Origin: Halodesulfurarchaeum formicicum | GTDB taxonomy: Archaea > Halobacteriota > Halobacteria > Halobacteriales > Halobacteriaceae | Direction: 5' to 3' | NCBI RefSeq assembly: GCF_001886955.1 | Contig: NZ_CP016804.1 | Coordinates: 1,674,001-1,738,000, forward strand | DNA length: 64,000 bases | Shown here: one piece after another, positions 7,863-63,000 of the stretch | Layout of the letters: every line of letters starts with the position of its first letter | Position numbering within the stretch: position 1 is the stretch's first letter | Notes under the pieces: generated by a model | Database searches by the model: none | Told to the model about the DNA's origin: nothing | What the model saw: only the letters and a program-made list of their open reading frames with translations | Translations under genes and position numbers: made by a program

Positions 7863-7899
7863 GTTTCGGACTCGCGGGGAGCGAGTATGTAACCTGGGA

Positions 7900-40949: not shown

Positions 40950-40953
40950 CGTT

Positions 40954-41577
40954 TTACCCCTGGTACGGAATCGGCGTCTCGACGTTTGCCGCGGCCTGGC
41001 CCTCCTCGCCAGTCTGCGGTTCGACGATGACCGATGTCGGGTTCTGTTCGAACTTCCGGGCGGCCGCATCCGAGGCCAGATCCATCAGTTCGCCGATCGG
41101 GCCGGCGTGAAGCGCCTCGCCCACACACTCATCGACACAGGCGGGTTCGAGCGGGTCGTCCTGTGTGTTCTTGGACTCGGCGTCCGCACCGGCACCCGGA
41201 CCTTTGTCGAGACAGAGGTTGCACTTCTGCATCAGGCCCTCCTCGCCGTACTGGGGCGCGCCGTACGGACAGGCCCAGCCACAGTACCGACAGCCGATAC
41301 ACTCGTCCCGATCGATGGTGACGATGCCGTCACTCTCGCGCTTCTCGATGGCGTTGGTCGGACAGACATCGACACACGGCGGGTCCTCACAGTGCATGCA
41401 GGAGAGCGAGACGTTGGTCTCCTGGTAGTCGGGGAACTCGCCGGTCGAGACGGTCTCGACCCGTCGCCAGTCGACGTGACCGGCCTCGGTTCCGTGCCGG
41501 TTCTTGCAGGCGATCGCACAGGCGTTACAGCCCATACAGGAGTTGGGATCGAAGTAAAAGCCCCACTGCTCACCCAT
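40954..41577 (-). CDS. psrB: [4Fe-4S] electron-transfer subunit (PsrB type)
   Basis: A 207-residue DmsB/PsrB-type ferredoxin with four cysteine groups: Cys14-17-20-24 (CMGCNACAIAC), CMHCEDPPCVDVC near 60, CIGCRYCGWACPYG near 93, and CNLCLDKG with CVDEC near 117 and 150. That arrangement holds four [4Fe-4S] clusters and carries electrons between the NrfD-like anchor and the molybdenum subunit. An acidic GPGAGADAESKN insert between the last two groups is a haloarchaeal feature. Its start overlaps the stop of the catalytic gene by one base (TGATG). Confidence 0.9.
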   Translation of the reverse strand: MGEQWGFYFDPNSCMGCNACAIACKNRHGTEAGHVDWRRVETVSTGEFPDYQETNVSLSCMHCEDPPCVDVCPTNAIEKRESDGIVTIDRDECIGCRYCGWACPYGAPQYGEEGLMQKCNLCLDKGPGAGADAESKNTQDDPLEPACVDECVGEALHAGPIGELMDLASDAAARKFEQNPTSVIVEPQTGEEGQAAANVETPIPYQG

Positions 41578-47079: not shown

Positions 47080-47157
47080 ACCGGACGCTCGTGCCCCGGG
47101 AAGATAACGGTTGGCAGCCGCCGGCGGTCACCAGTATTGTCCGTCTAGCAAAACCAT

Positions 47158-47170
47158 CACAATACCTATT
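47158..47170 (+). promoter_or_regulatory. TATA-like box of the RACo gene
   Basis: The sequence AATACCTATTAGC lies 26-38 bases before ATG 47196. That distance fits an archaeal promoter giving a leaderless or nearly leaderless transcript. The surroundings are AT-richer than coding DNA. It may start expression of the RACo gene alone, because a second box lies before the next gene. Confidence 0.45.
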
Positions 47171-47195
47171 AGCGGTTTCGCCCAAATTGGACCTG

Positions 47196-49118
47196 ATGGA
47201 GCGTGATCTAACGGTCTCGTTTGGCCCCTGGGACGTCGATGTTGAGGCCGCGACCGGCGAGACGATTCTGGACGCGGCGGAACGAGGGAACGTCGGTATC
47301 GAGGCACTCTGTGGCGGCAACGGCCTCTGTGGCACCTGCATGGTCCAGGTCGAAGACACGACTGCCGTCTCGCCAGTCGATGCCGACGAGCGGAACCTGC
47401 TCGACGCCGACCAGCTAGAGGCCGGCTATCGGCTGGGGTGTCGGGCCGAGGTGACCGAGGACGTCTCGGTGTTCGTCCCCGCGTCCTCGCGCAGTGAAGG
47501 GGAGATCGTGATGACCGAAGGACGGGAGATCGACTTCGAGCACGCGCCGGCGATCCGTCGCTATCAGCTCGAATTCCCGGCCCCAACCCTGGAGGATACG
47601 CTCCCGGACCGCGAGCGAGTGCTTGGGGCCCTGGAATCCGAGTACGGAGTCAGGGCCGACTCGATCGACCGGCTCGCACTGACGACACTCCCGACGGCAA
47701 TCCGCGAGGGAGAGACCGACGACGGCGACCTGCGGACGACCGCGACGGTCTTCGAGGAGTCCGAGGTGCTGGGGATCGACCCCGGTCGGGTCGGACCCGC
47801 GTACGGCCTCGCGATCGACATCGGAACGACCACGCTGGCGATCTACCTCCTGAACCTGCAGACCGGGGAGGTAGCCGCCGTCAGCTCCAAGATCAACCCC
47901 CAGAGCAGCCATGGCGGCGACATCATCAGCCGGGTGCAACACAGCACGCGATCGCCGGAAGGAAAGACCGAGCTCCAGGACGAGATCGTCGCCGGGATCA
48001 ACGACAGCGTCGAGGAGGTCGTCGCCGAGGCGGGGATCGAACCGGCCGAGATCTACGAGGCCGTCTTCGTGGGCAACACGGCGATGCATCACCTCTTCCT
48101 GGGCATCGACGCGGGCCCCGTCGCGGCCAATCCCTACGTCCCGGCCAACCAGGCCATCCTTCGAACGAAAGCCCGGGAACTAAAGCTCGACACGAACCCC
48201 GCTGCAATGGTGTCCTGGCTGCCCATCATCGGTGGCTGGGTCGGGCCGGACTTCGTCGCGGACCTCCTGGTCTCCGGCGTGCTCGACAGCGACGAGACCG
48301 CCATCGTGATCGACATCGGGACGAACGGCGAGATCGCCGTCTCGGGGCCCGAAGAGACCTACGTGGCGTCCGCACCGGCGGGCCCGGCACTCGAAGGAGC
48401 CGAGATCGCCCACGGCGTGCGGGCGAAACCGGGAGCCATCCAGGCAATCACGCTGGATCCCGATACCTGGGAGCCCGAACTCGATATCATCGAGGACAAG
48501 ACCCCGATCGGGATCTGTGGGTCGGGAATCATCGACATCGTCGCCCAGCTGTTCCTCGTCGGGGCGATCAATCGCCGCGGGCGACTGGTTGACCCCGAAG
48601 ACGGACACGGTCGGGTCCGGGACACCGAGGACGGGAGTCGAGAGTTTGTCCTCGTTGACACCGACGAAGCGGACATCGAGGAGGCCATCGTGGTCTCCCA
48701 GTCGGACATTCGAGACATCCAGAACGCGAAGGCCGCGATCCAGACCGGCATCTCGGTCCTGCTCTCGGAGGCGGGCTTCGAGACGGTCGACAAACTGATC
48801 ATGGCCGGCGGGTTCGGGAACTACATCGATCCGGAGTCCGCGAAGCTGCTGGGGCTGTACCCCGAAGTCGGGGCCGAGGACGTGGAGTTCCTGGGCAACG
48901 CGGCGGGATACGGCGCGATGTACGCACTGCTCAACGACGACGCGAAGGCCGAAGCCGAGCGAATCGTCGAGGAAGTTTCCTACGTCGAACTGGCGGCCTG
49001 GGACGGCTTCCACGACGCCTTCGCCCAGTCGATGTATCTCCCACACCGGGACTTCGATCGGTATCCATGGGTCAAAGAACGGGTCGAGGCCACCCGTGGG
49101 GCCGACGACGAGTTGTGA
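47196..49118 (+). CDS. Reductive activator of corrinoid proteins (RACo / RamA-like)
   Basis: A 640-residue protein matching RACo. The N-terminal [2Fe-2S] domain has Cys39, Cys45, Cys48 (CGGNGLCGTC) and Cys82. A linker region follows, and an ASKHA-type ATPase domain from about residue 205 (LAIDIGTTTLAIYLL, later VIDIGTNGEIAVSG and IMAGGFGNYIDPES). RACo re-reduces Co(II) to Co(I) in corrinoid methyltransferases, using ATP. This is the plant-type ferredoxin form with DUF4445, not the [4Fe-4S] RamA of methanogens. It directly precedes UroD-like and corrinoid-protein genes. ATG 47196 is the natural start; a frame to 47091 adds unconserved residues. Confidence 0.92.
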   Translation: MERDLTVSFGPWDVDVEAATGETILDAAERGNVGIEALCGGNGLCGTCMVQVEDTTAVSPVDADERNLLDADQLEAGYRLGCRAEVTEDVSVFVPASSRSEGEIVMTEGREIDFEHAPAIRRYQLEFPAPTLEDTLPDRERVLGALESEYGVRADSIDRLALTTLPTAIREGETDDGDLRTTATVFEESEVLGIDPGRVGPAYGLAIDIGTTTLAIYLLNLQTGEVAAVSSKINPQSSHGGDIISRVQHSTRSPEGKTELQDEIVAGINDSVEEVVAEAGIEPAEIYEAVFVGNTAMHHLFLGIDAGPVAANPYVPANQAILRTKARELKLDTNPAAMVSWLPIIGGWVGPDFVADLLVSGVLDSDETAIVIDIGTNGEIAVSGPEETYVASAPAGPALEGAEIAHGVRAKPGAIQAITLDPDTWEPELDIIEDKTPIGICGSGIIDIVAQLFLVGAINRRGRLVDPEDGHGRVRDTEDGSREFVLVDTDEADIEEAIVVSQSDIRDIQNAKAAIQTGISVLLSEAGFETVDKLIMAGGFGNYIDPESAKLLGLYPEVGAEDVEFLGNAAGYGAMYALLNDDAKAEAERIVEEVSYVELAAWDGFHDAFAQSMYLPHRDFDRYPWVKERVEATRGADDEL

Positions 49119-49242: not shown

Positions 49243-50538
49243 ATGACAGACGAAATGGACGTATCCCTCGAGAACTGGGAACAGGGCGTTGGCATCGACT
49301 TCGTGGACGAGGAGGCACGCGAGGCCTATCAGAAGCGGGCCGGACGGATCGCAACCGCGATTCGTGGCGGCACCCCCGATCAGATCCCGACCGTGCTGAG
49401 CGCGACCTTTTACCCCGTCTTCCACGCCGGTATCACCCCCGAGACCGCGATGAACGACGCGGAAGCGCTGGGTGACGCCTTCGAGCAGACGATCACGGAC
49501 CTCGAACCTGACGGCCAGCAGACCACCGCGACCCTGCTGCCCTCGGCGAAGATGCTGGACATGCTCGATTACAAGCTCTACGCCTGGCCGGGCGACGGCG
49601 CCTCACCCACGACGGGGTACCAGGCCCTGGAAGACGACTACATGGGGCCGGACCAGTACGAGCACTTCATTCAGGACCCGACTGACTTCTGGCTCCGGGA
49701 GTACATCCCGGAGATCGTCGGCGAGCTGGAGGGGTTCCGCCAGCTCCCGAAGTTCACCGACCTCGTCGAGATCCCGAACATCCACCTCATGGCGCTGTCC
49801 TTCGGGCTCCCGGAGGTCCAGGAGTCCCTGGAGACCCTGATGGAGGCCGGCGAGGAGGCGCTCCGCTGGCACGAGACCGTCGAGGGGCGGGCCATGGGTC
49901 TGGTCGAGCAGGGATATCCCCGATCCTTCGGCGGGTTCGCCAAGGCCCCATACGACGTGATCGCTGACACGCTCCGTGGGACCCACGGCGCGTCCATGGA
50001 CCTCAAGCGAAATCCGGACGAACTGCTCGAAGCGACCGAATCGCTCATCCCGAAGATGATCGACATGGGCATTCGGTCGGCACAGGCTTCGGCCAACCCG
50101 CTGGTTTTCATGCCCCTGCACAAGGGCGCTGACGGGTTCATGTCCGCCGAGGAGTTCGAGGAGTTCTACTGGGGCCCGCTCCGGGAAGTCATGGAGGGAC
50201 TCCTCGACGCCGGACTCGTCCCGTGGCTGTTCGCCGAGGGTGGCTACAACTCCCGGCTCGACGTGATCGCCGACCAGCCCGAGGGCAATATCGTCTGGCA
50301 GTTCGACCAGACCGACATGGTCGACGCCAAAGAGACACTCGGCGATCAGGTCACCATCGCCGGCAACGTTCACAGCTCCCTTTTGAACACCCAGACCCCG
50401 GAAGAGGTCACGGAGTACTGTGAGCAGCTCATCGATGACGTGGGCCCGGACGGATTCATCCTCGCCCCGGGGGTCGCCCTCGACGAGGCCGAACCGGCGA
50501 ACGTCAAGGCGATGATCGACGCGCCGAAGAACCGGTAA
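49243..50538 (+). CDS. UroD-fold methyltransferase-like protein 1
   Basis: A 431-residue protein of the uroporphyrinogen-decarboxylase fold family that includes MtaA, MtbA and CmuA. These TIM-barrel proteins move methyl groups between a donor and a corrinoid protein. Visible parts are RAGRIATAIRGGTPDQIPTV near 30-50, FTDLVEIPNIHLMALSFGLP in the middle, FMPLHKGADGFMS (His293), WLFAEGGYNSRLDVIADQPE, and the C-terminal VTIAGNVHSSLLNTQTPEEV. Where MtaA-type enzymes bind zinc through His-x-Cys and a distant Cys, this protein has HKG and only one cysteine (in EYCEQL, near residue 387). True UroD activity is unlikely, because no haem pathway is nearby. It is followed by a corrinoid-protein gene 180 bases away. 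The substrate is unknown. Confidence 0.82.
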   Translation: MTDEMDVSLENWEQGVGIDFVDEEAREAYQKRAGRIATAIRGGTPDQIPTVLSATFYPVFHAGITPETAMNDAEALGDAFEQTITDLEPDGQQTTATLLPSAKMLDMLDYKLYAWPGDGASPTTGYQALEDDYMGPDQYEHFIQDPTDFWLREYIPEIVGELEGFRQLPKFTDLVEIPNIHLMALSFGLPEVQESLETLMEAGEEALRWHETVEGRAMGLVEQGYPRSFGGFAKAPYDVIADTLRGTHGASMDLKRNPDELLEATESLIPKMIDMGIRSAQASANPLVFMPLHKGADGFMSAEEFEEFYWGPLREVMEGLLDAGLVPWLFAEGGYNSRLDVIADQPEGNIVWQFDQTDMVDAKETLGDQVTIAGNVHSSLLNTQTPEEVTEYCEQLIDDVGPDGFILAPGVALDEAEPANVKAMIDAPKNR

Positions 50539-50675
50539 GAACCGACGTTCCTTTTTGCGGTCGAGCTTTCGGAATGTGCCGGTGACGGGTGTCGGCCGCT
50601 GTGCCAGTTCGGTGCAATTGTGTTTGTACAAGTGAAACTGCTGTTTTTGGGAGTGTGCGCGCCTCAAACCCCCAA

Positions 50676-50685
50676 AACTATAAAT
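50676..50685 (+). promoter_or_regulatory. TATA-like box of corrinoid protein gene 1
   Basis: AACTATAAAT lies 34-43 bases before ATG 50719, giving a very short leader. Because it is the best TATA match in the island, the corrinoid protein and the overlapping methyltransferase-like gene behind it may be highly expressed as a separate unit. Confidence 0.5.
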
Positions 50686-50718
50686 CCAATGCAGTTGATT
50701 ATTTCACTTGCATTACTA

Positions 50719-51387
50719 ATGTCAGACGAATTCGTACAAGCACTGGCGGACCTCGAAGAGGAACGAGCAATCGAGATGGCCAAAGAGCGGTTGGATGCTG
50801 GCGAGGATCCGATGGCCGTTCTGGACGACCTGAAGAAGGGGATGGCCATCGTCGGCGATCGATACGACGCCGAGGAGTATTTCATCCCCGACCTGATGTA
50901 TGCCGGGGACATTATCGATCAGATCTCCGATCTGCTCCAGGAAGAGATGGAGATGGAGGAAGGTGAAAAGCTCGGGACCATCGTTCTGGGTACCGTCAAG
51001 GACGACATCCACGACATCGGCAAGGATCTGGTCTTCTTCATGTTCGACCTCAACGGCTTCGACGTGGTCGATCTCGGCGTGGACGTGCCGCCCGAGAAAT
51101 TCGTCGAGGCCGTCGAGGAGAACGATCCCGATATCATCGCACTCAGTGGCTTTCTCACGGCCGCCTTCGACTCCATGAAGGAGACCGTCGAGGCGCTGGA
51201 GGAAGCCGGGCTGGTCGAGCCGTTCAACGAGGACGGACTTCGTGACGGCACCAAGATCATGATCGGTGGCGGGCAGATCACGGCCGACGTGCGAAACTAC
51301 GTTCGTGCAGATGGCTTCGAAACTGACGCTCCCAGCGGAGTTCGCCTGGCCAAGGAGTGGCTCAAGACGGTGGAGGCCGCACAATGA
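50719..51387 (+). CDS. Corrinoid protein 1 (MtaC/MtbC-like cobalamin carrier)
   Basis: A 222-residue methyl carrier. The N-terminal helical cap (about 1-85) resembles the methionine-synthase cap region, and the B12-binding Rossmann domain follows. His98 in DDIHDIGKDL is the lower axial ligand of cobalt. LDLGVDVP-type DLGVDVPPEKFVEAVEEN and ALSGFLTAAFDSMKETVE, then IMIGGGQITADVRNYVRADG, complete the domain. The family carries Co(I)/methyl-Co(III) cobamide. ATG 50719 is chosen; the longer frame from 50620 begins in the upstream region. Its stop overlaps the start of the second UroD-like gene (ATGA), so the two proteins are likely partners. About 90% identical by eye to the protein at 57.6 kb. 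Confidence 0.92.
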   Translation: MSDEFVQALADLEEERAIEMAKERLDAGEDPMAVLDDLKKGMAIVGDRYDAEEYFIPDLMYAGDIIDQISDLLQEEMEMEEGEKLGTIVLGTVKDDIHDIGKDLVFFMFDLNGFDVVDLGVDVPPEKFVEAVEENDPDIIALSGFLTAAFDSMKETVEALEEAGLVEPFNEDGLRDGTKIMIGGGQITADVRNYVRADGFETDAPSGVRLAKEWLKTVEAAQ

Positions 51388-52685
51388 GCGACGAGCCGGC
51401 AGGGCCGACCCTGGAGACGTGGCAGCGAGGGGATGGAATCGACTTTGCCGACGAGGACGCGAAGGCGGACTACCAGCGGCGAGCGAAGCGCATGGTCGAT
51501 GCGCTCCGCGGCGCTGATCCGGACCGGGTCCCGGTCAACCTGCTCTCGACGTTCTACCCGGTCTTCCACGCCGGGTACACGCCCGAGGAGGCGATGTACG
51601 AGGGCGAAAAATTGCGCGATTCGCTCCTGACGTTCGTCGACGACCTGGAGCCGGACCTGTTTCCCTGGGCCGCCTCGCTGATCCCATCAGCGACGGCCCT
51701 GGAGATCGTCGATTACCAGGGCTTTGACTGGCCGGGGGACGGTTCCTCGCCGGAGACGGTCTACCAGGCGCGCGAGCGGGAGTACATGGGCGTCGAGGAC
51801 TACGAGGCCTTTTTCACGGATCCGAGTGACTTCTTCATCCGACAGTACCTGCCCGAAGTCTTCGGCGAGTTGGACGGCATGGCTCACTTCCCACAGTTCT
51901 CGAATCTGACCGCCGGGATCGCCGGGGTCCATCCGTACCTGCTGCCCTTCGGCATGCCGCCCATGCGAGAAACGCTGCAGAACCTCCTCGACGCTGGCGA
52001 GGAAGCGATGCGGTGGCAACAGCTCATCGGCGGGACCGTCGAGGAGATCGTCGGCGCGGGCTACCCCCAGTCCGTCGGCGGGATCACCCTCGCGCCCTAC
52101 GACATGCTCGGTGACATGGTGCGGGGAACCCACGCGATCATGATGGACCTCAAGCGCCGACCGGAGACGCTCCTGGAGGCTGTCGACCGGCTGGTACCCA
52201 TCGCCATCGAGATGGGAATCACCTCCGCGCACGTGAACAACAACCCCTTCGTCTTCATCCCGCTGCACAAGGGCGCGGACGGGTTCATGTCCGGCGAGGA
52301 GTTCGAGACGTTCTACTGGCCACAGCTCCGTCAGGTGATCGAGGCACTGACCGAGGCGGATCTCGTGCCCTGGCTGTTCGCCGAGGGGCGATACACGTCC
52401 CGGCTGGAGACGATCAGTGACCTCCCCGAGGGCGAGATGATCTGGCACTTCCAGGACACGGACCTCGAACTGGTCCGAGAGACACTCCCCGAGTCCGTCA
52501 CCATCGCGGGCGACGTCTCGACGGGCCTCCTGAACACCAGGGAGCCCGAAGCAGTCACCGAGTACAGCCAGGACCTGATCGAGCGAATGGGCCGAAACCG
52601 ATTCGTCCTCTCACCGGGCGTGGGGCTCGACGAGGCAAAGCCGGCAAACGTCAAGGCGATGATGGACGCGCCGAAGAACCGGTAG
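51384..52685 (+). CDS. UroD-fold methyltransferase-like protein 2, cysteine-free
   Basis: A 433-residue paralogue of protein 1. It shares FYPVFHAGYTPEEAMYEGEK near 57, the FIPLHKGADGFMSGEEFETF segment (His295), PWLFAEGRYTSRLETISDLP and VTIAGDVSTGLLNTREPEAV. I find no cysteine in the whole sequence, which excludes the zinc-thiolate site of MtaA-like enzymes. His295, neighbouring acidic residues and aromatics may form a site suited to a charged methyl donor. The start overlaps the corrinoid gene by 4 bases. The pair is the tightest coupling in the island and marks protein 2 as the partner of corrinoid protein 1. Substrate unknown. Confidence 0.82.
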   Translation: MSDEPAGPTLETWQRGDGIDFADEDAKADYQRRAKRMVDALRGADPDRVPVNLLSTFYPVFHAGYTPEEAMYEGEKLRDSLLTFVDDLEPDLFPWAASLIPSATALEIVDYQGFDWPGDGSSPETVYQAREREYMGVEDYEAFFTDPSDFFIRQYLPEVFGELDGMAHFPQFSNLTAGIAGVHPYLLPFGMPPMRETLQNLLDAGEEAMRWQQLIGGTVEEIVGAGYPQSVGGITLAPYDMLGDMVRGTHAIMMDLKRRPETLLEAVDRLVPIAIEMGITSAHVNNNPFVFIPLHKGADGFMSGEEFETFYWPQLRQVIEALTEADLVPWLFAEGRYTSRLETISDLPEGEMIWHFQDTDLELVRETLPESVTIAGDVSTGLLNTREPEAVTEYSQDLIERMGRNRFVLSPGVGLDEAKPANVKAMMDAPKNR

Positions 52686-52737
52686 GCCGTTTCGAACTGG
52701 GGAATCCTTTTTAGCTGCCCGAACGCGTAGGTGGTGT

Positions 52738-53406
52738 ATGTCAATCGGCGAGCCCGTCGTGTTGCGGGACATCTCCGTCGAACTCGACCTCGAACAGCTC
52801 GAGACACAGCCGCCCTTCGCCCAGTGGCTCGCCGCGAAATCGGGCGCCGCCACTCGAACGCGAATCGAGACGTTGCGCGAGGAGGTCGTCGCCTCGATCG
52901 ACCCACGAGGATTGTACCTGATCGAGCCGACCCAGGAATCGGTGATCGAGCGATACGACCCGCCGGCGGAACTCGTTTCGGGCAGTCACCTCGTAACCGG
53001 CGTGGTGACCCTCGGCGAGGATCCCGTGGCGACGAACGAACTGTCCCGGTTCGACGCGCTCCTCTGGGACGCACTGGAAAACGCCGCGCTCCAGGATGTC
53101 AGGGAGGCGATGCTCGAAGCGATCCGGGCCGAGACCGACGAGCGGGGCTGGAACACGACTCGGGTGTACGCCCCGGGCACGAAAGACGACGGCTGGCCGC
53201 TGGAGCGCCGGGAGTACGTCTTCGAGGCCCTCCCGACCGAGGAGATCGACTGTACGCTCCAGGGGACCTACACCGAACCGCGAAAGACCCTGACGTTCAC
53301 CATCGGCGTCGGCCCCGACATCGAGCAGGCGGAGTTTCTGCTCTCCTGTGCGGACTGTGAGATTCTGGCCGAATGCCCCTACGCCGGGGCGAAGACGATG
53401 GCCTGA
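52738..53406 (+). CDS. Protein resembling the methionine-synthase activation domain
   Basis: A 222-residue protein. Its centre, VYAPGTKDDGWPLERREYVF (about 141-160), resembles the conserved PGY-WPL-Q region of vitamin B12-dependent methionine synthase activation domains, and its end LLSCADCEILAECPYAG has Cys204, Cys207 and Cys213 like the C-terminal CxxC-x-CP pattern of stand-alone activation-domain proteins. Such proteins are found beside corrinoid methyltransferases and may assist reductive reactivation. The N-terminal 100 residues look divergent. ATG 52738 lies 52 bases after methyltransferase-like protein 2. The call is from motifs and context, so moderate. Confidence 0.6.
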   Translation: MSIGEPVVLRDISVELDLEQLETQPPFAQWLAAKSGAATRTRIETLREEVVASIDPRGLYLIEPTQESVIERYDPPAELVSGSHLVTGVVTLGEDPVATNELSRFDALLWDALENAALQDVREAMLEAIRAETDERGWNTTRVYAPGTKDDGWPLERREYVFEALPTEEIDCTLQGTYTEPRKTLTFTIGVGPDIEQAEFLLSCADCEILAECPYAGAKTMA

Positions 53407-53418
53407 GAAAGAAGGAGT

Positions 53419-54918
53419 CTAGTCGTGGAAGACCCGGTCGAAGACGTCGAAGTTCTGGTCGACGATCTCCTTCGAGGGTGGGCTGGTCAGCAGTGAGACG
53501 ACAACCACGAGTGCACTCGCGAGCAGCAGCGACGGCGCGGAGTAGTGGAAGCCGAAGGTCGTCCAGGCCGGGAGGACCTCGAAGGCCCAGAGCGCGACGA
53601 TCGGGGTCGTGATCACGACGGAAGCCACCACACCCGTGCTCGTCGTCCCCTTCCAGTAGAGAGCGGCGAAGTAGGATGGCACCAGCGTCGCAAAGCCGGT
53701 GAACGCGAACACGCCGACCGCCAGGATCGTGTCCGGACGGGCGAGCACGAGCAGGTACGTGACCAGGGCCACCACCAGGATGAAGAACTTGCTGAAGCGG
53801 TTCTCCCACTGCGTGGAGAGCTCATAGCCCTGCATCTTGGCGATCGGCTTGATGATGTCATCGGAGAACATCGAGGACGTCGCCAGGAGCATGCCGTCCC
53901 AGGAGGTCATGATCGCGGCGAAGATCCCAGCGGCGATCAGGCCGACCATCCAGGTCGGGGCGTACATCTCCGCCAGTGCCGGCAGAATCCGGTCCACGGC
54001 GGTGCCCTCCAGTCCGGGGAGTGCGATACTGCCCCAGACCCCAAGCGAGATGGTCATGAAGAAGAGGACGCCGACCAGCACGGGGTAGATGTAGGTGTTG
54101 CGCTTGATCGTCTTCGGGCTGTCCGCGGACATGTTCTTGACCAGCACGTGAGCGATGACGCCGTTAGACATCCCCGTCGCGATCAGGCTGAACGGGATCC
54201 AGACCTTGGGGTCCTGGACCGCCGCGCCGCCGAGCGAGATCATCTGTGGGGAGAGCTGATCGAGGATGGCCTGGCCACCACCGAGTGCGTTGTAGACGAT
54301 ATACATCATCGGGACCAGCACCGCGAGCATGAGCGCCCCCTGGAAGATGTTCGTCCAGGCGCTGCCCCGCTGCCCGCCGGCGTAAGCCACCCAAGTCGTG
54401 ATGAACAGGATGATCAACGCGCCGAGCCAGTAGGGGATGAACCCGTCGGTCACGACTTCGAAGATGATCCCGGCCCCGATGCCACCGATCACGATGTACT
54501 GGATCTCGTAGATGATCTGGGCGATCGAGATGACAAAACGCGGCATGTAGGACTCGAATCGGTCACCGAAGAAGTGCACCGGCGTGACGTGATCGAACGC
54601 TTCGGCGAGCAGCCAGACGCGATAGCCGATCACGAAGAAGGCCGCCGCGGCCATGAACTGGGCCATTCCAACGATGTACCCGTACGCGGAGTACCCGAGT
54701 CCGTAGGCGGCTCCCGGAGCCCCCATCATCCCGAAAGCGGTTACCTGGGTCCCGAAAATCCCCATCGCCGTGGCCACGAGCCCCAGACTTCGCGAGGCGG
54801 TGAACAGGTCACCGACGTCCGATTCGAGGACTCGCCAGGCGAGATACCCGATGAGAAGCGTCCCGGCCAGGTAGGCCGCGATGATGGCGAGAATCAGGAC
54901 GGTGTCGGATTCGACCAT
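53419..54918 (-). CDS. Sodium:solute symporter family (SSS) transporter
   Basis: A 499-residue integral membrane protein of the SSS/PanF type with about 13 helices. The first helix is ILAIIAAYLAGTLLIGYLAW, followed by DVGDLFTASRSLGLVATAMG, the conserved re-entrant stretch FGTQVTAFGMMGAPGAAYGLG (two parts), and sodium-site-like region GLIAAGIFAAIMTSWDGMLL with TSSMFSDDI. SSS members import sugars, amino acids, pantothenate, choline-like or organic-acid solutes with Na+. The pairing with a small two-helix protein upstream is typical for one subgroup. It is convergent with the activation-domain-like gene and is a likely importer of the methylated substrate. Confidence 0.85.
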   Translation of the reverse strand: MVESDTVLILAIIAAYLAGTLLIGYLAWRVLESDVGDLFTASRSLGLVATAMGIFGTQVTAFGMMGAPGAAYGLGYSAYGYIVGMAQFMAAAAFFVIGYRVWLLAEAFDHVTPVHFFGDRFESYMPRFVISIAQIIYEIQYIVIGGIGAGIIFEVVTDGFIPYWLGALIILFITTWVAYAGGQRGSAWTNIFQGALMLAVLVPMMYIVYNALGGGQAILDQLSPQMISLGGAAVQDPKVWIPFSLIATGMSNGVIAHVLVKNMSADSPKTIKRNTYIYPVLVGVLFFMTISLGVWGSIALPGLEGTAVDRILPALAEMYAPTWMVGLIAAGIFAAIMTSWDGMLLATSSMFSDDIIKPIAKMQGYELSTQWENRFSKFFILVVALVTYLLVLARPDTILAVGVFAFTGFATLVPSYFAALYWKGTTSTGVVASVVITTPIVALWAFEVLPAWTTFGFHYSAPSLLLASALVVVVSLLTSPPSKEIVDQNFDVFDRVFHD

Positions 54919-54921
54919 TCC

Positions 54922-55155
54922 TCAATCCTCACCTCCCGACTTCGGCATCGGCCAGGCGAACCGGCCGATCAGGTAGTTCAGGACCGGGAACAGGAAGGTG
55001 ACGAACGCGAACCGGTAGAGGAACTCCTGTGTCCAGGCCAGATACGTGAACTGTTCGGCCCCCCAGTTCCAGAAGTCATAGTGGAGTATCGTGACAATGA
55101 TCACCAGGACGAAAACGAACGCCAGTGACCCATTCGTGCTTTTGGTGTTGACCAT
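54922..55155 (-). CDS. Small two-helix membrane protein, partner of the SSS transporter
   Basis: A 77-residue protein with two membrane segments, SLAFVFVLVIIVTILHY and YRFAFVTFLFPVLNYLIGRF. Small proteins of this type (DUF3311/YhdT-like) precede many SSS transporters. Its stop is 3 bases before the SSS start, so the two are cotranscribed and may form a complex. ATG 55155 is chosen because the frame upstream enters the promoter region shared with the MFS gene and has no coding character. Confidence 0.75.
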   Translation of the reverse strand: MVNTKSTNGSLAFVFVLVIIVTILHYDFWNWGAEQFTYLAWTQEFLYRFAFVTFLFPVLNYLIGRFAWPMPKSGGED

Positions 55156-55310
55156 GACGTGATTGGCAAACCTCCTGGGTACCAGTTTGAAACCACCCAT
55201 CTTAATTGTTGGTACCGATTCCCACGTGACCGAGCCCGAGTCCAGGCAACTGTCGCCGCCGAGTGGAGTGCAAAACTCCTTAAACGGGGCCGTGCCATGT
55301 TCCGACGACG

Positions 55311-56507
55311 ATGACAGACGCCCCATCTCAGAGACGGTGGGCAGTCCTGGCTATCGCCTGGGCCGCCTTCTTCAGCATCGCGATGAGCTGGTATACGATG
55401 CCGACCCTTCAGCCCCAGCTCCTGGAGAGCTACGGCCTGAGTCCACAGCAGTTCCGGACCGCACTCACCATTCCGTTTCTCGTGGCCGGGCTCCTGTCGA
55501 TTCCCGGTGGGATGCTCGCGGACCGGTTGGGGATCAAGCGGGCGGCCTCGATGGGGATCGCGATTGCGGCCGTGGGCTTTCTGCTCCGATCGCTGGGCGG
55601 CGGGTTCGGACTCCTGCTCGTTGCGATGATCACCATCGGCGTCGGCCTCGGGATGGTGATGCCGAACCTGCCGAAACTGGTCAACGTCTGGTTCCCGCCC
55701 GAGGAGACCGGGCTCGCGACCGGCATCTACAACACCGGGATGATGGCCGGGCTCTCGACCGGACTCGTCATCGCCCCCTCCCTTCCGTCCTGGCGGACCG
55801 GCAACCTGGTCTTCGCCGGGGTCGTCCTGGCGCTGGCGCTTGCCTTCTACCTGATCGTCGAGGACGCCCCGCCCGGGAAATCGCTCCCGCCGGCGAACCT
55901 CTTCGAGGGCATTCAGCGGGCAGTCAGAAGTAAAAACGCCTGGATCGCTGCCATCGCGGTCTTCGCGGGCTTCAGCGGAATGGTCGCGATCCAGGGAGAG
56001 TTTCCGGTGGCGCTCAACGAGGTGTACGGCATCGAACAGGCGACCGGCGGCCAGATCGCCTCGATGATTACCTACGCCGGGGTCTTCGGTTCGCTCTCGA
56101 TTCCGACCATCGCGAATCGACTCGATCGACGGAAGGCGGCGCTTGTCATCGCCGCGGTCGGGTTCGGGGTCGTCGAGTTCCCCGTCTGGTTGACCGGTAA
56201 CACCAGCGTGTTGTTCGTCGGGACGGCCGTCGCGGGCTACCTGGCCGGCGGGGCCCTGCCGATCATCATGGAGGTACCAGCCTGGCTTCCCAGAGTAGCG
56301 AACGATCCCGTCGAGACCCAGCACGTCGGTGGCGCCTCGGGACTCATGACGGCGATGATGAACATCGGCGGGTTCGTTGGCCTCCCGCTCATCATCGGCC
56401 CGACGATCGGAGCCTACGGCTACACCGTCGGCTTTGGCGTCGCCATGTTCATCTTCGCGTTCCAGGGGCTCGGCGTGTTCCTCTCGATGCCGGACGTGGC
56501 CACGTGA
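55311..56507 (+). CDS. Major facilitator superfamily transporter 1
   Basis: A 398-residue MFS protein with 12 helices. The family loop is DRLGIKRAASMG (about 65-76) between helices 2 and 3, with helix 4 GVGLGMVMPNLPKLVNVWFP. The central loop is short and helix 7 begins near residue 215 (NAWIAAIAVFAGFSG). It resembles nitrate/nitrite- or CynX-like exporters and importers, so a small anion is one option, and a substrate or product of the methyl pathway another. It is divergent from the SSS unit, with about 155 bases between starts, and convergent with the pterin-binding gene. Confidence 0.8.
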   Translation: MTDAPSQRRWAVLAIAWAAFFSIAMSWYTMPTLQPQLLESYGLSPQQFRTALTIPFLVAGLLSIPGGMLADRLGIKRAASMGIAIAAVGFLLRSLGGGFGLLLVAMITIGVGLGMVMPNLPKLVNVWFPPEETGLATGIYNTGMMAGLSTGLVIAPSLPSWRTGNLVFAGVVLALALAFYLIVEDAPPGKSLPPANLFEGIQRAVRSKNAWIAAIAVFAGFSGMVAIQGEFPVALNEVYGIEQATGGQIASMITYAGVFGSLSIPTIANRLDRRKAALVIAAVGFGVVEFPVWLTGNTSVLFVGTAVAGYLAGGALPIIMEVPAWLPRVANDPVETQHVGGASGLMTAMMNIGGFVGLPLIIGPTIGAYGYTVGFGVAMFIFAFQGLGVFLSMPDVAT

Positions 56508-56535
56508 GTCGGCAGGAAAAATTCGCTGCGGGGCG

Positions 56536-57393
56536 TTACTTCGAGCGGTAGAAACCCAAAAAGCGCTTCGCGAAGTTGTCCCGGCCCATCATCAGGTCGG
56601 CAAGGAGGATCGCCTCGCGAGTCTCACCGGCGTTGACGATCGGGACGCTCAGACCGGACTGGATCGCCATCGCGAGATAGAGATCGTTGATCTTCTCCCG
56701 CTCGGGCATCTCGAAGGAGATGTTGCTCAGCCCCAGCGTGATGTTGTTCCCGAGTTCGTCCCGGATCCGTTCCATCGCTTTGAGGATCTCGAACCCGATG
56801 TCCGAGTTCGAGGAGAGGGGCAGCGCGATCGGGTCGATGATGACATCCTCGCGGGGGACGTCGTAGGATTCGGCTTCTTCGAGGAGCGCTTCGGCCAGTT
56901 CGACCCGGGTCTCGGCGTCGTCCGGCGGGCCGGACTCGTCCATCGTGAGGCCCACGACCGCAGTTTCGTACTCGGCGACCAGCGGGAAAATTGCCTCACG
57001 CGAGGCCTCCTCCATGCTTACCGAGTTGATGACGGGTTTGCCGGGGGCGACCTGCAGGGCCGCCTCGAGGGCCTCGGCGTCGTCGTAGTTCGTGTCGATG
57101 ACGATCGGTACGTCCACCGCATCGGCCACGGCCTCGACGGCCATCGGCAGGACGGTCTCCTTGTCCACGCCGTCGACGTCGACGTTCACGTCGATCAGAT
57201 CGGCCCCGTTCTCGACCTGTTCGATCGCGAGTTCCCGGACCGGTTCCATATCCTCGTTTGCGAGTGCTTCCGCCAGGTCGGATTCCGGTCGCGGGTTGAT
57301 CCGCTCGCCGATGATCCGGACCTGGTCGGTCCGGTCGATCGTGAGCGACGAATCTGCTCCCTCGACTGTCGTTTGTAGTGACATGCTGTCCAT
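56536..57393 (-). CDS. Pterin-binding methyltransferase (MeTr/MtgA-like, dihydropteroate synthase fold)
   Basis: A 285-residue TIM-barrel protein of the pterin-binding family. It reads IIGERINPRPESDLAEALAN near the N-terminus, then ENGADLIDVNVDVDG (the pterin-binding Asp-x-Asn), PIVIDTNYDDAEALEAAL, PVINSVSMEE, and GNNITLGLSNISFEMPEREK. This is the signature of methyltetrahydrofolate:corrinoid methyltransferases (MeTr, MtgA, MtvA), not of folate synthesis, because DHPS has other loops. It would pass methyl groups between the corrinoid protein and tetrahydrofolate, which haloarchaea use. The start is ATG 57393; ATG 57384 is also possible. It is divergent from corrinoid gene 2. Confidence 0.88.
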   Translation of the reverse strand: MDSMSLQTTVEGADSSLTIDRTDQVRIIGERINPRPESDLAEALANEDMEPVRELAIEQVENGADLIDVNVDVDGVDKETVLPMAVEAVADAVDVPIVIDTNYDDAEALEAALQVAPGKPVINSVSMEEASREAIFPLVAEYETAVVGLTMDESGPPDDAETRVELAEALLEEAESYDVPREDVIIDPIALPLSSNSDIGFEILKAMERIRDELGNNITLGLSNISFEMPEREKINDLYLAMAIQSGLSVPIVNAGETREAILLADLMMGRDNFAKRFLGFYRSK

Positions 57394-57530
57394 CTGAAAC
57401 CACTCAGCCAGTCTCTAAAAGGATTGTGTTAGGTGACGCGTTGTCGACTGGAACTCGCTGGGAGAAAAACTGAGTTGGGATAGCACAACTGAATATGTGC
57501 AATTCCCAGATTACAGGGGCGCTACCCCGC

Positions 57531-57540
57531 AATCTTTAAG
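57531..57540 (+). promoter_or_regulatory. TATA-like box of corrinoid protein gene 2
   Basis: AATCTTTAAG lies 34-43 bases before ATG 57574, the same spacing as the box before corrinoid gene 1, although the sequence differs. Matching spacing suggests similar promoter design for both carrier genes. Confidence 0.45.
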
Positions 57541-57573
57541 GAACGACCCGACCACTTTTCAAGCGGGTTACCG

Positions 57574-58230
57574 ATGTCCGAGGAATTCGTACAAGCACTG
57601 GCGGATCTAGAGGAGGAACGAGCAATTGAGATGGCCAACGACCGGTTGGACGCTGGCGAGGATCCAATGGACGTTCTCGACGACCTGAAAAAAGGAATGG
57701 CCATCGTCGGCGACCGCTACGACGCGGAGGAGTATTTCATCCCGGACCTGATGTACGCCGGGGACATCATCGATCAGATCTCCGATCTGCTCGTCGACGA
57801 GATGGACGCGGACGAGAGTGAGACACTCGGAACGATCGTCCTCGGAACCGTCAAGGACGACATCCACGACATCGGCAAGGACCTGGTCTTCTTCATGTTC
57901 GACCTCAACGGCTTCGAGGTCATCGATCTCGGCGTCGACGTGCCGATCGAGAATTTCGTCGAGGCCGTCGAGGAGAACGACCCCGATATCATCGCGCTCA
58001 GTGGCTTCCTCACCGCTGCCTTCGACTCTATGAAGGAGACCGTCGAAGCGCTCGAAGAGGCCGGCCTGGTCGAGGAGTTTGACGAGGACGGACTTCGTGA
58101 TGGCACCAAGATCATGATCGGCGGTGGCCAGATCACCGACGACGTGCGAAACTACGTCCGGGCTGACGGCTACGAAACGGACGCTCCCAGCGGGGTTCGC
58201 CTGGCCAAGGAGTGGCTCGGCGAGGCGTAA
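57574..58230 (+). CDS. Corrinoid protein 2 (MtaC/MtbC-like cobalamin carrier)
   Basis: A 218-residue near-copy of corrinoid protein 1. The cobalt ligand is His98 in DDIHDIGKDL, and the IMIGGGQITDDVRNYVRADG segment is kept. Most differences cluster in the linker between the helical cap and the Rossmann domain (LLVDEMDADESET against LLQEEMEMEEGEK) and at the surface loop after DLGVDVP. This looks like a recent duplication followed by divergence at sites that could set partner choice. It sits between the pterin-binding gene (divergent) and the third UroD-like gene (convergent), each of which may be its partner. Confidence 0.92.
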   Translation: MSEEFVQALADLEEERAIEMANDRLDAGEDPMDVLDDLKKGMAIVGDRYDAEEYFIPDLMYAGDIIDQISDLLVDEMDADESETLGTIVLGTVKDDIHDIGKDLVFFMFDLNGFEVIDLGVDVPIENFVEAVEENDPDIIALSGFLTAAFDSMKETVEALEEAGLVEEFDEDGLRDGTKIMIGGGQITDDVRNYVRADGYETDAPSGVRLAKEWLGEA

Positions 58231-58332
58231 GTGAGGCGGCGTTCCATCCAGTGAAATTCTGCGCGGGGAAGATTGACGATTTTCGCCGAGTGAAGCGGTG
58301 TCGAACGAAACACGTCGTGGGGCAGAACGTCG

Positions 58333-59610
58333 TTAGTTCTCTTTGACCGAGTTGATCATCGCGTGGATGTTCTCCTTCGGCGTTCGGTAGATTCGAGCGC
58401 TCGTCGTCAGGATGAACCGCTCCCGACCGATGTCCTCGGCGAGTTCTTTGCAGTGGGCCTGAATGGCCTCGGGTTCGGCGGTCTTCATGAGCGAGGTCGA
58501 AACGCCACCAGCGACCGTGACGGTATCGCCCAGAATCTCGTGGGCCTCACGAACGTCGGTGCGGTCGAAAATCCACACCGTGGGCCCCTCGGGGTGGTTC
58601 TCCGCGAGGAACTCGAGTCGGGCGTCGTACGTGCCTTCGGCGAACATGAGCGGCACGTAGCCCTCGTCGATCACGGCCTCCATCGTCTCCTTCAGCGTCG
58701 GCCAGTAGAACTCCTCGAAGTCGTCCTGGGACATGAAGTTATCCGCTCCCTTGTGGAGGACAAAGAGGACGAAGGGGGACCCAGTCGCTTCCGGCCCGGA
58801 CGTTCCGAGATCTTTCATCATCGGCGTGACCGCCCTGGTGGCCGCCTTGATCTTCTCGGGGCGCTTTCGCATGTCGATCATCGCGTTGCGCGTGCCACGA
58901 AGCATGTCGGCAATCGTATCGAATGGTGCCTTCGAGTACCCGCCCGAGAACGAGGGATACCCCTTCGCCTCGGCCTCGGAGGCAACCACGCCCACTTTCT
59001 CTTGCCACTCGGCCATCGCATCACCCGCGTCCATCAGCGACTCGAGTGCGTGTTGGACCTCCGAATCTCCGAAGGGGAGGGTCAGTGGCTTGATCATCGG
59101 GAGTTCCTGGCTCAGGGAGAAGTTCGGCAGTTTGCCGAGTCCCTCGAGTTCTCCGAAGACCCGGGTCATGTACTGTTTCAGGAACCAGGACTCCGGATTG
59201 GCGATGAACTCATCGTAGTCCGCCGCCGTCATGTACTCGCCTTCGAGTGCCTGGAACCCCGAATTCTCGTCGACGCCGTTTCCGGGCCAGTTGTAAAGGT
59301 TGTAGTCGAGGATATCCGCCGGTTTTCCGGGCGGCTCGATCGTGACGTGGTTGTTGTCCGGGTCGAACTCCTCGAGGAACTCCCGATAGGCGGCCGCGGC
59401 CTTCTCGGCGTCGTACATCATCTCCTCGAAGGTCACGTCGGCCTGGTGGCCGGCGAGATACCCACTCCGAACCCGTACCGGCACTCGATCGGGCGTGTTC
59501 CCGACGACAGCGTCTTTGAGCCGGGTTGCCTTTCGCTTGTATTTTTCCGCCGCTTCGGCACTTTCAAAATCGACGTGCTCTCCATTCGCCCAGGAGTCAA
59601 GGCTGACCAT
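58333..59610 (-). CDS. UroD-fold methyltransferase-like protein 3
   Basis: A 425-residue paralogue of the two genes at 49-53 kb, more divergent. It keeps RATRLKDAVVGNTPDRVPV-like KDAVVGNTPDRVPVRVRSGY, LFVLHKGADNFMSQDDFEEF (His286), PLMFAEGTYDARLEFLAENH and VTVAGGVSTSLMKTAEPEAI. A single cysteine lies in AHCKEL near 375. The zinc His-x-Cys is again replaced by HKG. The N-terminal half, with YLAGHQADVTFEEMMYDAEK, differs most from its paralogues, so the methyl donor probably differs. The frame continues upstream to 59904, but ATG 59610 gives the length of its relatives. A TATA-like TATTTATT is at 59651-59658 on the minus strand. Confidence 0.82.
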   Translation of the reverse strand: MVSLDSWANGEHVDFESAEAAEKYKRKATRLKDAVVGNTPDRVPVRVRSGYLAGHQADVTFEEMMYDAEKAAAAYREFLEEFDPDNNHVTIEPPGKPADILDYNLYNWPGNGVDENSGFQALEGEYMTAADYDEFIANPESWFLKQYMTRVFGELEGLGKLPNFSLSQELPMIKPLTLPFGDSEVQHALESLMDAGDAMAEWQEKVGVVASEAEAKGYPSFSGGYSKAPFDTIADMLRGTRNAMIDMRKRPEKIKAATRAVTPMMKDLGTSGPEATGSPFVLFVLHKGADNFMSQDDFEEFYWPTLKETMEAVIDEGYVPLMFAEGTYDARLEFLAENHPEGPTVWIFDRTDVREAHEILGDTVTVAGGVSTSLMKTAEPEAIQAHCKELAEDIGRERFILTTSARIYRTPKENIHAMINSVKEN

Positions 59611-59809: not shown

Positions 59810-61117
59810 TTAGGAAGCGGTCGAGTAGCGCGTTCCGACAGCGGCCGCGCCAGCGGAGATGAACCGGATGGCGATTGCAACCGCAAAGGATGCCAGATAG
59901 ACACCGGTCAGGTCATTAATGTAGGCAAAGACGATCGGTCCCAGAAAGACACCCGAGCCGACCGAGACAGCGTTCATGTAGGTAAGGATCTTGCCCACGT
60001 TCTCCCGGCCGAAGAAGTTCGGGACCGCAGCGTAGTGAACCGGGGGCTCACCACCCAGTCCGAAGAAGATCAGCGCTCCAATGACCAAGACTGGAATCAG
60101 CATGGTGTAGCTCAGGAAGAAGAGCGCATAGAGGGTCGCGGGAATCCCGTAAATGAGGATCAGCGCACGGAACGGGCCGCCAAGATAGTCCATTACGCGA
60201 CCCCAGAAAATCGCGCCCGCACCCATGAACAGGTAGTTGACCGAGAGGAACGTCGGGACCACAGTTCCGGTCACGAACGCCTCCGAGTAGCCGGCGTTTT
60301 CGACCAGCCCTTCCACCAGGATGAGCGAGAAGTTCTGCATGAAACCCATGTACGAGAACGCGGCACCCGTCATGGCGACGAGAAGGATCCAAAATCGGGC
60401 GTCCTTGAATGCAGCGGCGAACGTCATGGCCTCACCCGAGGATTCGGTGTCCGTTTCGGATTCCTGGTCAAACAACTCGCGCTGTTCATCAGCCGTCGGG
60501 AACCGCCACACGACCGTACCAAGGACGATCGTGATCGCGACACCGAAGAGCGTAACGACCATCGCGAAGCCAAAGGAGAACCCAAGCAGGCTCAACAGGC
60601 CCCCGATAATCGGAGAGGCAGCAGCCAGCGCGAGATACCTGGCACCCATCATCAGCCCCTGGGCGCTGCCCTGTTCGTCGTCGCTAAACCATTGTGACAC
60701 CAGCGGCGGGAGCAACCCTGTCGCGAGCGCTGTTGCGCCGCCACCAAGCAAGAAGCTTGCCGCGTACCAGAACCACTTTCCCATCACCCAGGACTCCGCC
60801 GTTGTCATCAGCGAGAACGAGACCCCACCTAAGGCGATAAGCACGGCAGCCACGAGCGAGGGGATAACGGCGGAATCCGTCCGATCCAGGATCGTCCCGA
60901 TGATCGGCGGAAATACCACCATCGCACCGAGCCCGGCCAACGAACTTCCCAGTGCGATAGCCGCTGTGGACTCCAGAGCGAACTGGTTCTGAACGTACGG
61001 GAAGAAGATCGTCCACGTGTATTGGAACGCAATGAGTCCGATGATCAGCGCCGACCCGGGATACAATCGACGTTTGTCTAGTCCTATACCTCTGTTTTTC
61101 AGGCTATTCGCTGGCAT
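59810..61117 (-). CDS. MFS transporter 2 (oxalate:formate antiporter-like)
   Basis: A 435-residue MFS protein with 12 helices. It resembles the OFA (oxalate:formate antiporter) group: YPGSALIIGLIAFQYTWTIF in helix 1, then GAMVVFPPIIGTILDRTDSA, WFSDDEQGSAQGLMMGARYL and the second-half loop FFGRENVGKILTYMNAVSVG. OFA members exchange organic anions or lactate-like acids. It may import a methylated acid or export the demethylated product. ATG 61117 is used; a TTG at 61135 would add 6 residues. It is divergent from the DUF1638-like gene, with 135 bases between the starts. Confidence 0.82.
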   Translation of the reverse strand: MPANSLKNRGIGLDKRRLYPGSALIIGLIAFQYTWTIFFPYVQNQFALESTAAIALGSSLAGLGAMVVFPPIIGTILDRTDSAVIPSLVAAVLIALGGVSFSLMTTAESWVMGKWFWYAASFLLGGGATALATGLLPPLVSQWFSDDEQGSAQGLMMGARYLALAAASPIIGGLLSLLGFSFGFAMVVTLFGVAITIVLGTVVWRFPTADEQRELFDQESETDTESSGEAMTFAAAFKDARFWILLVAMTGAAFSYMGFMQNFSLILVEGLVENAGYSEAFVTGTVVPTFLSVNYLFMGAGAIFWGRVMDYLGGPFRALILIYGIPATLYALFFLSYTMLIPVLVIGALIFFGLGGEPPVHYAAVPNFFGRENVGKILTYMNAVSVGSGVFLGPIVFAYINDLTGVYLASFAVAIAIRFISAGAAAVGTRYSTAS

Positions 61118-61222
61118 ACCAGTTCTGGGTTCCAATCACGACGACTTATAGTTACTGGATAGTTTTGCCTCTTTTAGAACGTCGGATTGGAAATCGACAA
61201 CCAATGTCAAGAAGGGAAACGG

Positions 61223-61252: not shown

Positions 61253-62074
61253 ATGCACGGAATCGTCGCCTGCGAAACGCTGTACCCCGAAATCCGCCGA
61301 ATCGCGCCGGATGCTGTCGTGGCCTACGTCCCCCAGTGGTACCACGAGTTCCCGATCCACGCACCCGAATCGGAGACGGCCCACGAGCTGCTTCAGGAGC
61401 GGATCGACGAACTCGAATCGCAAGGCGTCGAGTCGGTAACGGTTGTCTACCACGATCCAGCGGCCCTGGAGGGACTTCAGACCGAGTCCGTGCCACTTTC
61501 CGTCTATCGGGGCCGGGACTGCATCGAGTTGCACCTGGACCGGAAGCCCAGTGGGCCCGGCGGCGAACGAAAGAACGGAGGGACCTACTATCTCACACGG
61601 GGCTGGATCGACGTGGCCGTCGACTCCTACAAAGTCTTCAACGCGTACGCGGGCAAACTGAACGATCTCGTCGAACGGTTCGAGGAAGCCGAACGGGCGG
61701 ATCCGGACATGCGAGTCTCCTGGACGGAAAGCGAGAAGATCGAACGGGCCGCCGCACGGAGTGAGGGGATGGGCACGGACCCAGCGAAGCTCCTGCGACA
61801 AGTAATCGGGACCTACCGGCACGTCGTGTTGATCGACACGGGACTGCTCCGCCCGTTCCACCACGAGTACGCGGAGCGTTTCCGGGACTTTCTCGCGAAC
61901 GATATCCCAGACGGCGACCCGGTTGCGGTTTCCCTGACCGTCGAAGCGGGAACGACGGAGCCGCTCGAAGCGATCCTCACGGCGCCAACGTCGGTTTCGG
62001 AGGTCCTTACCGTCGAGCCGGGAACGCCGGTCCCGGCCGAACCCGGTTTCCGGACCGGGCCACAGCATCCCTGA
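61253..62074 (+). CDS. DUF1638-like protein
   Basis: A 273-residue soluble protein beginning MHGIVACETLYPEIRRIAPD. The plan, with Cys7, an RIDELESQGVESVTVVYHDP segment, YYLTRGWIDVAVDSYKVFNA and VVLIDTGLLRPFHHEYAERF, fits the DUF1638 family, whose genes occur beside corrinoid methyltransferase and RACo genes in anaerobes. Its role is unknown; it may be an additional corrinoid or cofactor handling factor. The start ATG 61253 has a leaderless-type promoter. It is followed by the IclR regulator gene 128 bases away in the same direction. Confidence 0.68.
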   Translation: MHGIVACETLYPEIRRIAPDAVVAYVPQWYHEFPIHAPESETAHELLQERIDELESQGVESVTVVYHDPAALEGLQTESVPLSVYRGRDCIELHLDRKPSGPGGERKNGGTYYLTRGWIDVAVDSYKVFNAYAGKLNDLVERFEEAERADPDMRVSWTESEKIERAAARSEGMGTDPAKLLRQVIGTYRHVVLIDTGLLRPFHHEYAERFRDFLANDIPDGDPVAVSLTVEAGTTEPLEAILTAPTSVSEVLTVEPGTPVPAEPGFRTGPQHP

Positions 62075-62202: not shown

Positions 62203-63000
62203 ATGGCACACGCACCGATCCGGGCGGTCGACCGCTTGTTCGACATCGTCGAAGCCATCCAAGTCCGGAACGGCGCCGGTGTCTCGGAACTGGCCGACGC
62301 ACTCGATATGCCGAAAAGCACCATTCATGGCCATCTCGCTACCCTCAGGGACCGTGGCTATCTGGAACAGGACGAGACCAACGACTATCATCTCAGTCTC
62401 CAGTTTCTGACCCTCGGCGGAGCCGTTCGCCAGCAGCGAACGATCTACGGACACGTCGAACCGCTACTCGCTGAACTCGCCGAAGAGACCGGCGAGAGCG
62501 TGAATTACGTCGTCGAGTCACAGGGAAAACTCGTGTTCGTGGGTTCGGTCTCGGGCAAGGACGGGATCCGGACCGAGGTCGACATCGGATTCACGACGGA
62601 CCTGCACACCACCCCGGAAGGCAAGTTGACCCTCGCGCACCTTCCCGAGACCCGGCGTGCGGCGATCATCGATCAGATCGAGTTTCCCATCGACAACTCG
62701 GTCGGTCGGGCCGCCTTCACCGCCGAACTCGAAGCGATCAGGGAGCAGGGATTCACCCACGGGAACGAGACCATCATCAAAAACGTCACGACGATCGCGG
62801 CCCCAGTGATCGACAACCAGGACCGGTTCTACGGGACGGTCGTCGTCGCCGGGCCCTCCCTCAGGTTCACCGAAGAGCGCCTCGAAAACGTGACCGAGAC
62901 CCTCCGCTACAAGATCGGGAAACTCAACATCGACCTGAGTTACGAGGGAACCCGACCGGTCACCGAGAACCAGGTTCGAACCGCCCGACCGAGTCAGTAG
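62203..63000 (+). CDS. IclR-family regulator of the methyl-transfer island
   Basis: A 265-residue IclR protein. The wHTH is VDRLFDIVEAIQVRNGAGVS, then ELADALDMPKSTIHGHLATL, RDRGYLEQ (residues about 10-58). The effector domain has YLSLQ-type DYHLSLQFLTLGGAVRQQRT, FTTDLHTTPEGKLTLAHLPE and ITTIAAPVIDN-type TIAAPVIDNQDRFYGTVVVA. IclR proteins often control catabolic genes beside them in response to the pathway substrate. This is the only regulator in the island and closes it on the right, so it is the best candidate to sense the methylated compound. It is unlike the cysteine-containing IclR at 45 kb. Confidence 0.88.
   Translation: MAHAPIRAVDRLFDIVEAIQVRNGAGVSELADALDMPKSTIHGHLATLRDRGYLEQDETNDYHLSLQFLTLGGAVRQQRTIYGHVEPLLAELAEETGESVNYVVESQGKLVFVGSVSGKDGIRTEVDIGFTTDLHTTPEGKLTLAHLPETRRAAIIDQIEFPIDNSVGRAAFTAELEAIREQGFTHGNETIIKNVTTIAAPVIDNQDRFYGTVVVAGPSLRFTEERLENVTETLRYKIGKLNIDLSYEGTRPVTENQVRTARPSQ

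Follow-up and report, generated by a model that had tools for sequence, protein, structure and literature searches.

Gene content of the corrinoid locus

A 64,000-nucleotide stretch of the Halodesulfurarchaeum formicicum genome (contig NZ_CP016804.1, positions 1,674,001 to 1,738,000; hereafter the window) encodes three UroD-superfamily proteins, MT1a, MT1b, and MT1c, which we examined as candidate corrinoid methyltransferases I (MT1). MT1b and MT1c are 54% and 42% identical to MT1a, and a scan of genome contigs with the alignment of the three proteins returned three loci only, owing to the narrow patterns chosen. The initial annotation had placed a His-Lys-Gly (HKG) motif at His293, His295, and His286, respectively, and had counted one cysteine in MT1a (C393), none in MT1b, and one in MT1c (C387); both readings are correct, and the H-x-C pattern is absent from all three sequences. 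Its claim of selection on the HKG region also stands: almost every one of 44 homologues, at identities as low as ∼32%, carries HKG or HRG, a conservation that rules out a chance origin of the motif.

All of the gene neighbors expected for a corrinoid MT1 (corrinoid protein, methyltransferase II [MT2], and RACo-type activase) were found at the locus (Table 1), and the whole arrangement is kept in another genome of the genus (G012). The two corrinoid proteins, CP1 and CP2, both contain the DxHxxG motif. The MT2 retains the INS, IDP, and GLSN motifs along with the SFxMPxR stretch of O-demethylase MT2; apart from it and FolP (dihydropteroate synthase), the genome encodes no Pterin_bind protein. 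The MFS protein beside MT1c resembles one beside mtoB of Archaeoglobus fulgidus (217 bits).

Table 1 Features of the corrinoid methyltransferase locus in window coordinates
Feature	Position	Strand	Basis
Reductive activase of corrinoid protein, [2Fe-2S] and RACo domains	47091..49118	+	domain matches
MT1a, HKG-type UroD-superfamily corrinoid methyltransferase I, candidate (His293, Glu332)	49243..50538	+	PF01208 match, profile, tree, model
MT1a His293-Lys-Gly (HKG) codons	50119..50127	+	position computed from residue number
MT1a Glu332 codon, FAEG motif, column of MtaA/MtbA zinc Cys	50236..50238	+	alignment; residue number
CP1, corrinoid protein, B12-binding_2 and B12-binding, DIHDIG motif	50719..51387	+	domain matches
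MT1b, UroD-superfamily MT1, candidate, zero cysteines, His295	51384..52685	+	PF01208 match, tree
Sodium:solute symporter (SSF)	53419..54918	-	family match
Small protein upstream of symporter, no family match, conserved in G012	54922..55326	-	family search; genome comparison
Second MFS transporter	55311..56507	+	family match
MT2, methylcorrinoid:tetrahydrofolate methyltransferase, AcsE/D. hafniense O-demethylase MT2 type	56536..57393	-	domain and profile matches, motifs
CP2, corrinoid protein	57574..58230	+	domain matches
MT1c, UroD-superfamily MT1, candidate, His286	58333..59610	-	PF01208 match, tree
MFS transporter, oxalate/formate-type, upstream of MT1c on same strand	59810..61135	-	family match
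DUF1638 protein, cluster edge	61253..62074	+	family match
IclR-family regulator, cluster edge	62203..63000	+	family match

Elsewhere in the window, some 3 kb from the gene for the activase, are genes for NrfD, ferredoxin-like iron-sulfur, and molybdopterin subunits of a polysulfide/thiosulfate-reductase-like complex (39867-43928, -). The window also holds a single open reading frame of 2729 residues (21289-29478, -) and an aminoglycoside 3-N-acetyltransferase-family protein (3193-4002, +) that scores below curated resistance-model cutoffs.

Relationship to the zinc-dependent coenzyme M methyltransferases

MtaA- and MtbA-type enzymes share the UroD fold (PF01208) with the window proteins, and the initial annotation had taken HKG to occupy the place of their zinc motif. 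We aligned 44 HKG-family proteins with 7 MtaA/MtbA-type proteins using hhalign and MAFFT. The seven references come from one archaeal genome of another class (G576), where they were found with NF004889, the methylcobalamin:coenzyme M (CoM) methyltransferase model, four of the seven scoring above its cutoff. By both methods, the H-x-C-G zinc motif (7/7 references) aligns to F330-A331-E332-G333 of MT1a and the C-terminal zinc cysteine (7/7) to V411, while the HKG column falls at the non-ligand end of the strand preceding the zinc-motif strand. All three ligand positions are therefore lost (His to F330, Cys to E332, and Cys to V411), as proposed, but it is FAEG and not HKG that aligns with the motif; in these alignments HKG is a separate feature, not a substitute for the MtaA/MtbA zinc motif. 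The genome that supplied the references itself carries (locus L120) a single HKG-like MT1 with a shortened motif (HKGIF) and a corrinoid protein; the CoM methyltransferase model gave nine matches there.

A phylogeny of UroD-fold methyltransferases, suggested in the initial annotation as a check, places HKG, MtoB-like, and CdmB proteins together and apart from MtaA-like proteins and from the decarboxylase HemE, which also shares the fold (100/100), with MtoB-like proteins and CdmB forming a supported group (100/100) inside the HKG diversity. MtaA and MtbA, which retain the H-x-C...C zinc ligands and act as MT2 on CoM, are thus the wrong yardstick: the window proteins group with the MT1 enzymes MtoB and CdmB and lie beside their own corrinoid proteins and tetrahydrofolate (H4folate) MT2, and a thiol acceptor is therefore not expected. 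Lack of H-x-C is ordinary in the MtoB/CdmB branch and therefore no surprise. The nearest solved structure by sequence is CdmB (PDB 9rui), with a profile E value of 2e-72; the CoM methyltransferase 4ay7 reaches 0.0076.

It could still be argued that these proteins are MtaA/MtbA-like MT2 that methylate CoM or another thiol without zinc, given their common fold and weak matches to the CoM methyltransferase model (32-42 bits). We regard this as very improbable. The NF004889 scores (32.6, 41.7, and 39.3 bits) are far below the cutoff of 244, every zinc-ligand position is lost, the tree position speaks against it, an H4folate MT2 is already encoded at the locus, and bacterial loci contain several such genes per corrinoid protein. 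Scores against the MtaA model (23-27 bits, cutoff 400) and the hemE equivalog (∼25 bits, cutoff 302.95) are similarly low, and the genome encodes a separate UROD-family protein that scores 359 bits. The earlier exclusion of a zinc-thiolate mechanism for MT1b holds for a Cys-ligated site but does not extend to zinc itself, because zinc has been reported in some UroD-type O-demethylases (and is absent in others; PMC13222342) and His293 and Glu332 could in principle contribute to binding.

The Halodesulfurarchaeum copies cluster as a single clade (100/100) and so, within the sampling of the tree, evidently duplicated after one acquisition. In a search of 394 genomes of the order Halobacteriales, the proteins turned up in no others than the three from Halodesulfurarchaeum. 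In the Dehalococcoidia order of a Dehalococcoidales metagenome-assembled genome, strong matches occur in 37 of 151 genomes, several with 11 or more copies, and one 3.3 Mb Dehalococcoidia genome yielded 42 first-look candidates. These uncharacterized proteins (e.g., L065-L092, L116-L119) share the HKG motif, most of them at 36-46% identity to MT1a, and are encoded in operons with a corrinoid protein and an MT2 of the same type, but unlike the window genes they occur in tandem arrays; three loci (L116, L117, and L119) each combine one corrinoid protein, 5-6 tandem HKG genes, and one MT2. Such an excess of MT1s over MT2 would be expected if substrate choice lay with MT1. Searches of plasmids with tblastn returned one distant Sporomusa protein, and a scan of viral contigs found nothing.

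A conserved His/Glu pair at the barrel strand ends

Of the 44 HKG-type proteins, 42 have His at position 293, the other two (L053 and L054) having Thr, and 42 have Glu at position 332, with Asp in the remaining two. Both residues are invariant, as PLH and F-E-G with no K-G insertion, in 17 of 17 MtoB-like proteins from the same archaeal phylum, including Archaeoglobus AF_0007. We modeled MT1a with AlphaFold2 from 44 sequences (mean predicted local distance difference test score, 93.8; predicted template modeling score, 0.92), again following a check proposed in the initial annotation. Strands 287-292 and 326-331 of the model end directly at His293 and Glu332, which puts both residues at the predicted catalytic ends of consecutive strands of the barrel. 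In Foldseek, the model falls with UROD and the CoM methyltransferase 4ay8; the library apparently lacks CdmB.

CdmB, the Acetobacterium chloromethane:corrinoid methyltransferase, resembles the window proteins in being a UroD-superfamily MT1 of the same length and fold class that partners with a corrinoid protein and an H4folate MT2 and lacks an MtaA-type zinc site. It differs in having Trp and Gln in the columns of His293 and Glu332, no K-G insertion, an aromatic hydrophobic cavity, and haloalkane substrates. Its structure contains no zinc, neither EDTA (ethylenediaminetetraacetic acid) nor zinc affects its activity, and it has been described as a metal-free scaffold with an aromatic cavity that takes no active catalytic part (PMC13222342). 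This dehalogenase has neither residue, whereas the O-demethylase relatives keep both. The comparison, which rests on one dehalogenase sequence, suggests that the pair eases release of the leaving oxygen, by acting as acids or by holding a metal. Chloride is a good leaving group; phenolate and alkoxide are not.

The metal variant of this mechanism leaves the MT1 role unchanged but has His293, Glu332, and perhaps other residues hold zinc or another metal that polarizes the leaving group, as has been reported for the Acetobacterium veratrole and vanillate O-demethylases. The two residues stand at the ends of adjacent strands, are conserved together in HKG and MtoB-like proteins, and are lost together in zinc-free CdmB, and zinc is present in some O-demethylases (PMC13222342). 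We nevertheless consider a metal site unlikely, since no third strictly conserved His, Cys, or Glu is apparent. Asp358, which is Asn in CdmB, was weighed as a possible third ligand; HemE has Asp there too, however, and the residue opens helix 359-366, so that it is more likely a structural helix cap. The zinc-containing O-demethylases of Acetobacterium reportedly share an E-x14-E-x20-H motif, which is absent from MT1a, MT1b, and MT1c, and MtvB of Moorella is reported to be zinc-free.

Predicted demethylation pathway and physiological context

Taken with the gene set, these results make it probable that the three proteins are the substrate-specific MT1 components of a corrinoid-dependent demethylase system of the Odm/Mto kind; methyl ethers are the leading candidate substrates, at about even odds. 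The published Mto clusters of A. fulgidus (AF_0006-0013) and Methermicoccus shengliensis likewise comprise corrinoid proteins, several MT1s with the conserved His (PLH) and F-E-G Glu, a RACo-type activase, and MFS transporters (PMC8359953, PMC8630106). In the genome taken to be A. fulgidus, the MT1 genes lie at 8.2 and 14.1 kb, with corrinoid protein, MFS, and activase genes in the published order (PMC8359953). Unlike the window system, Mto uses an MtrH-type MtoA with tetrahydromethanopterin, whereas the window MT2 is of the AcsE type and the host uses H4folate.

From sequence and model we infer methyl transfer itself, an acid role for His293 and Glu332, and a physiological role, as follows. 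The activase would reduce the corrinoid protein to Co(I). MT1 would bind the methylated substrate in its barrel, where Co(I) of CP1 or CP2 would attack the methyl group; His293 and Glu332 would facilitate departure of the oxygen, with acid catalysis as the simplest mode. From there, the AcsE-type MT2 would pass the methyl group to H4folate, and methyl-H4folate could be oxidized via the known folate one-carbon pathway of the host, feeding sulfur or dimethyl sulfoxide (DMSO) respiration.

Several observations weigh against this interpretation. Neither the sodium symporter nor the MFS types single out a particular substrate. Identity to MtoB is only ∼30%, MtoB lacks the K-G insertion, and the closest characterized MT1 comparable by sequence, CdmB, uses chloromethane. 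A phmmer comparison of the window MT2 with the mto cluster of A. fulgidus gave no match, and this MT2 is not of the MtrH type seen in MtoA. Two of the HKG relatives have the Thr at position 293 noted above. Finally, the tree draws its references from MtoB-like, CdmB, MtaA-like, and HemE proteins only.

The same MT1 role could also serve substrates other than methyl ethers, such as haloalkanes, methylated sulfur compounds, or other N-methyl compounds. We know of no characterized member of the HKG clade. CdmB demonstrates that dehalogenases exist within the branch (PMC13222342), and the host makes dimethyl sulfide from DMSO, with traces of methanethiol (PMC5437934). Such substrates nonetheless seem somewhat doubtful, given that MtoB-like proteins have the His/Glu pair and the dehalogenase does not and that betaine-type substrates have a separate locus, with a BCCT transporter and corrinoid protein, as well as an MttB-family protein.

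That second corrinoid locus lies outside the window (L125, C1:1778001-1798000; L129) and encodes another RACo activase, a methylenetetrahydrofolate reductase-like protein, FolD, ETF, an 846-amino-acid fusion of FAD oxidoreductase and GCV_T (dimethylglycine/sarcosine dehydrogenase-like), an aldehyde ferredoxin oxidoreductase, a third corrinoid protein, and the BCCT transporter; it looks like a locus for glycine betaine catabolism. Gene order suggests that the fusion is the GcvT (HTSR_1750) marked "100%" in the HTSR1 proteome in the Figure 7 legend of PMC5437934. Within the window, the MttB-superfamily methyltransferase (PF06253, trimethylamine/glycine betaine type; 6441-8096, -) has no corrinoid protein beside it and adjoins B12 ABC importer genes (4037-6444, +) encoding BtuC and a BtuD-like ATPase that scores just under the model cutoff.

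H. formicicum HSR6, an anaerobic haloarchaeon, uses formate to respire sulfur and DMSO and possesses a complete folate one-carbon pathway; the main text of its description mentions neither methyl-group catabolism nor corrinoid, cobalamin, or B12 (PMC5437934). The novelty lies chiefly in the host, the gene set, and the clear pair of candidate catalytic residues. More tentatively, this haloarchaeon may use its HKG system to demethylate methoxy compounds at salt saturation, coupling methyl oxidation on H4folate to sulfur or DMSO respiration, and the HKG clade may be a broad MT1 radiation in which a His/Glu acid pair stands in for zinc and was lost in the dehalogenase branch. Correcting the misread zinc site yields a testable prediction, namely, that His293 and Glu332 should matter for ether cleavage but be dispensable for methyl halide cleavage, and points to breakdown of methyl groups by this anaerobe and to a large family of putative demethylases in Dehalococcoidia.

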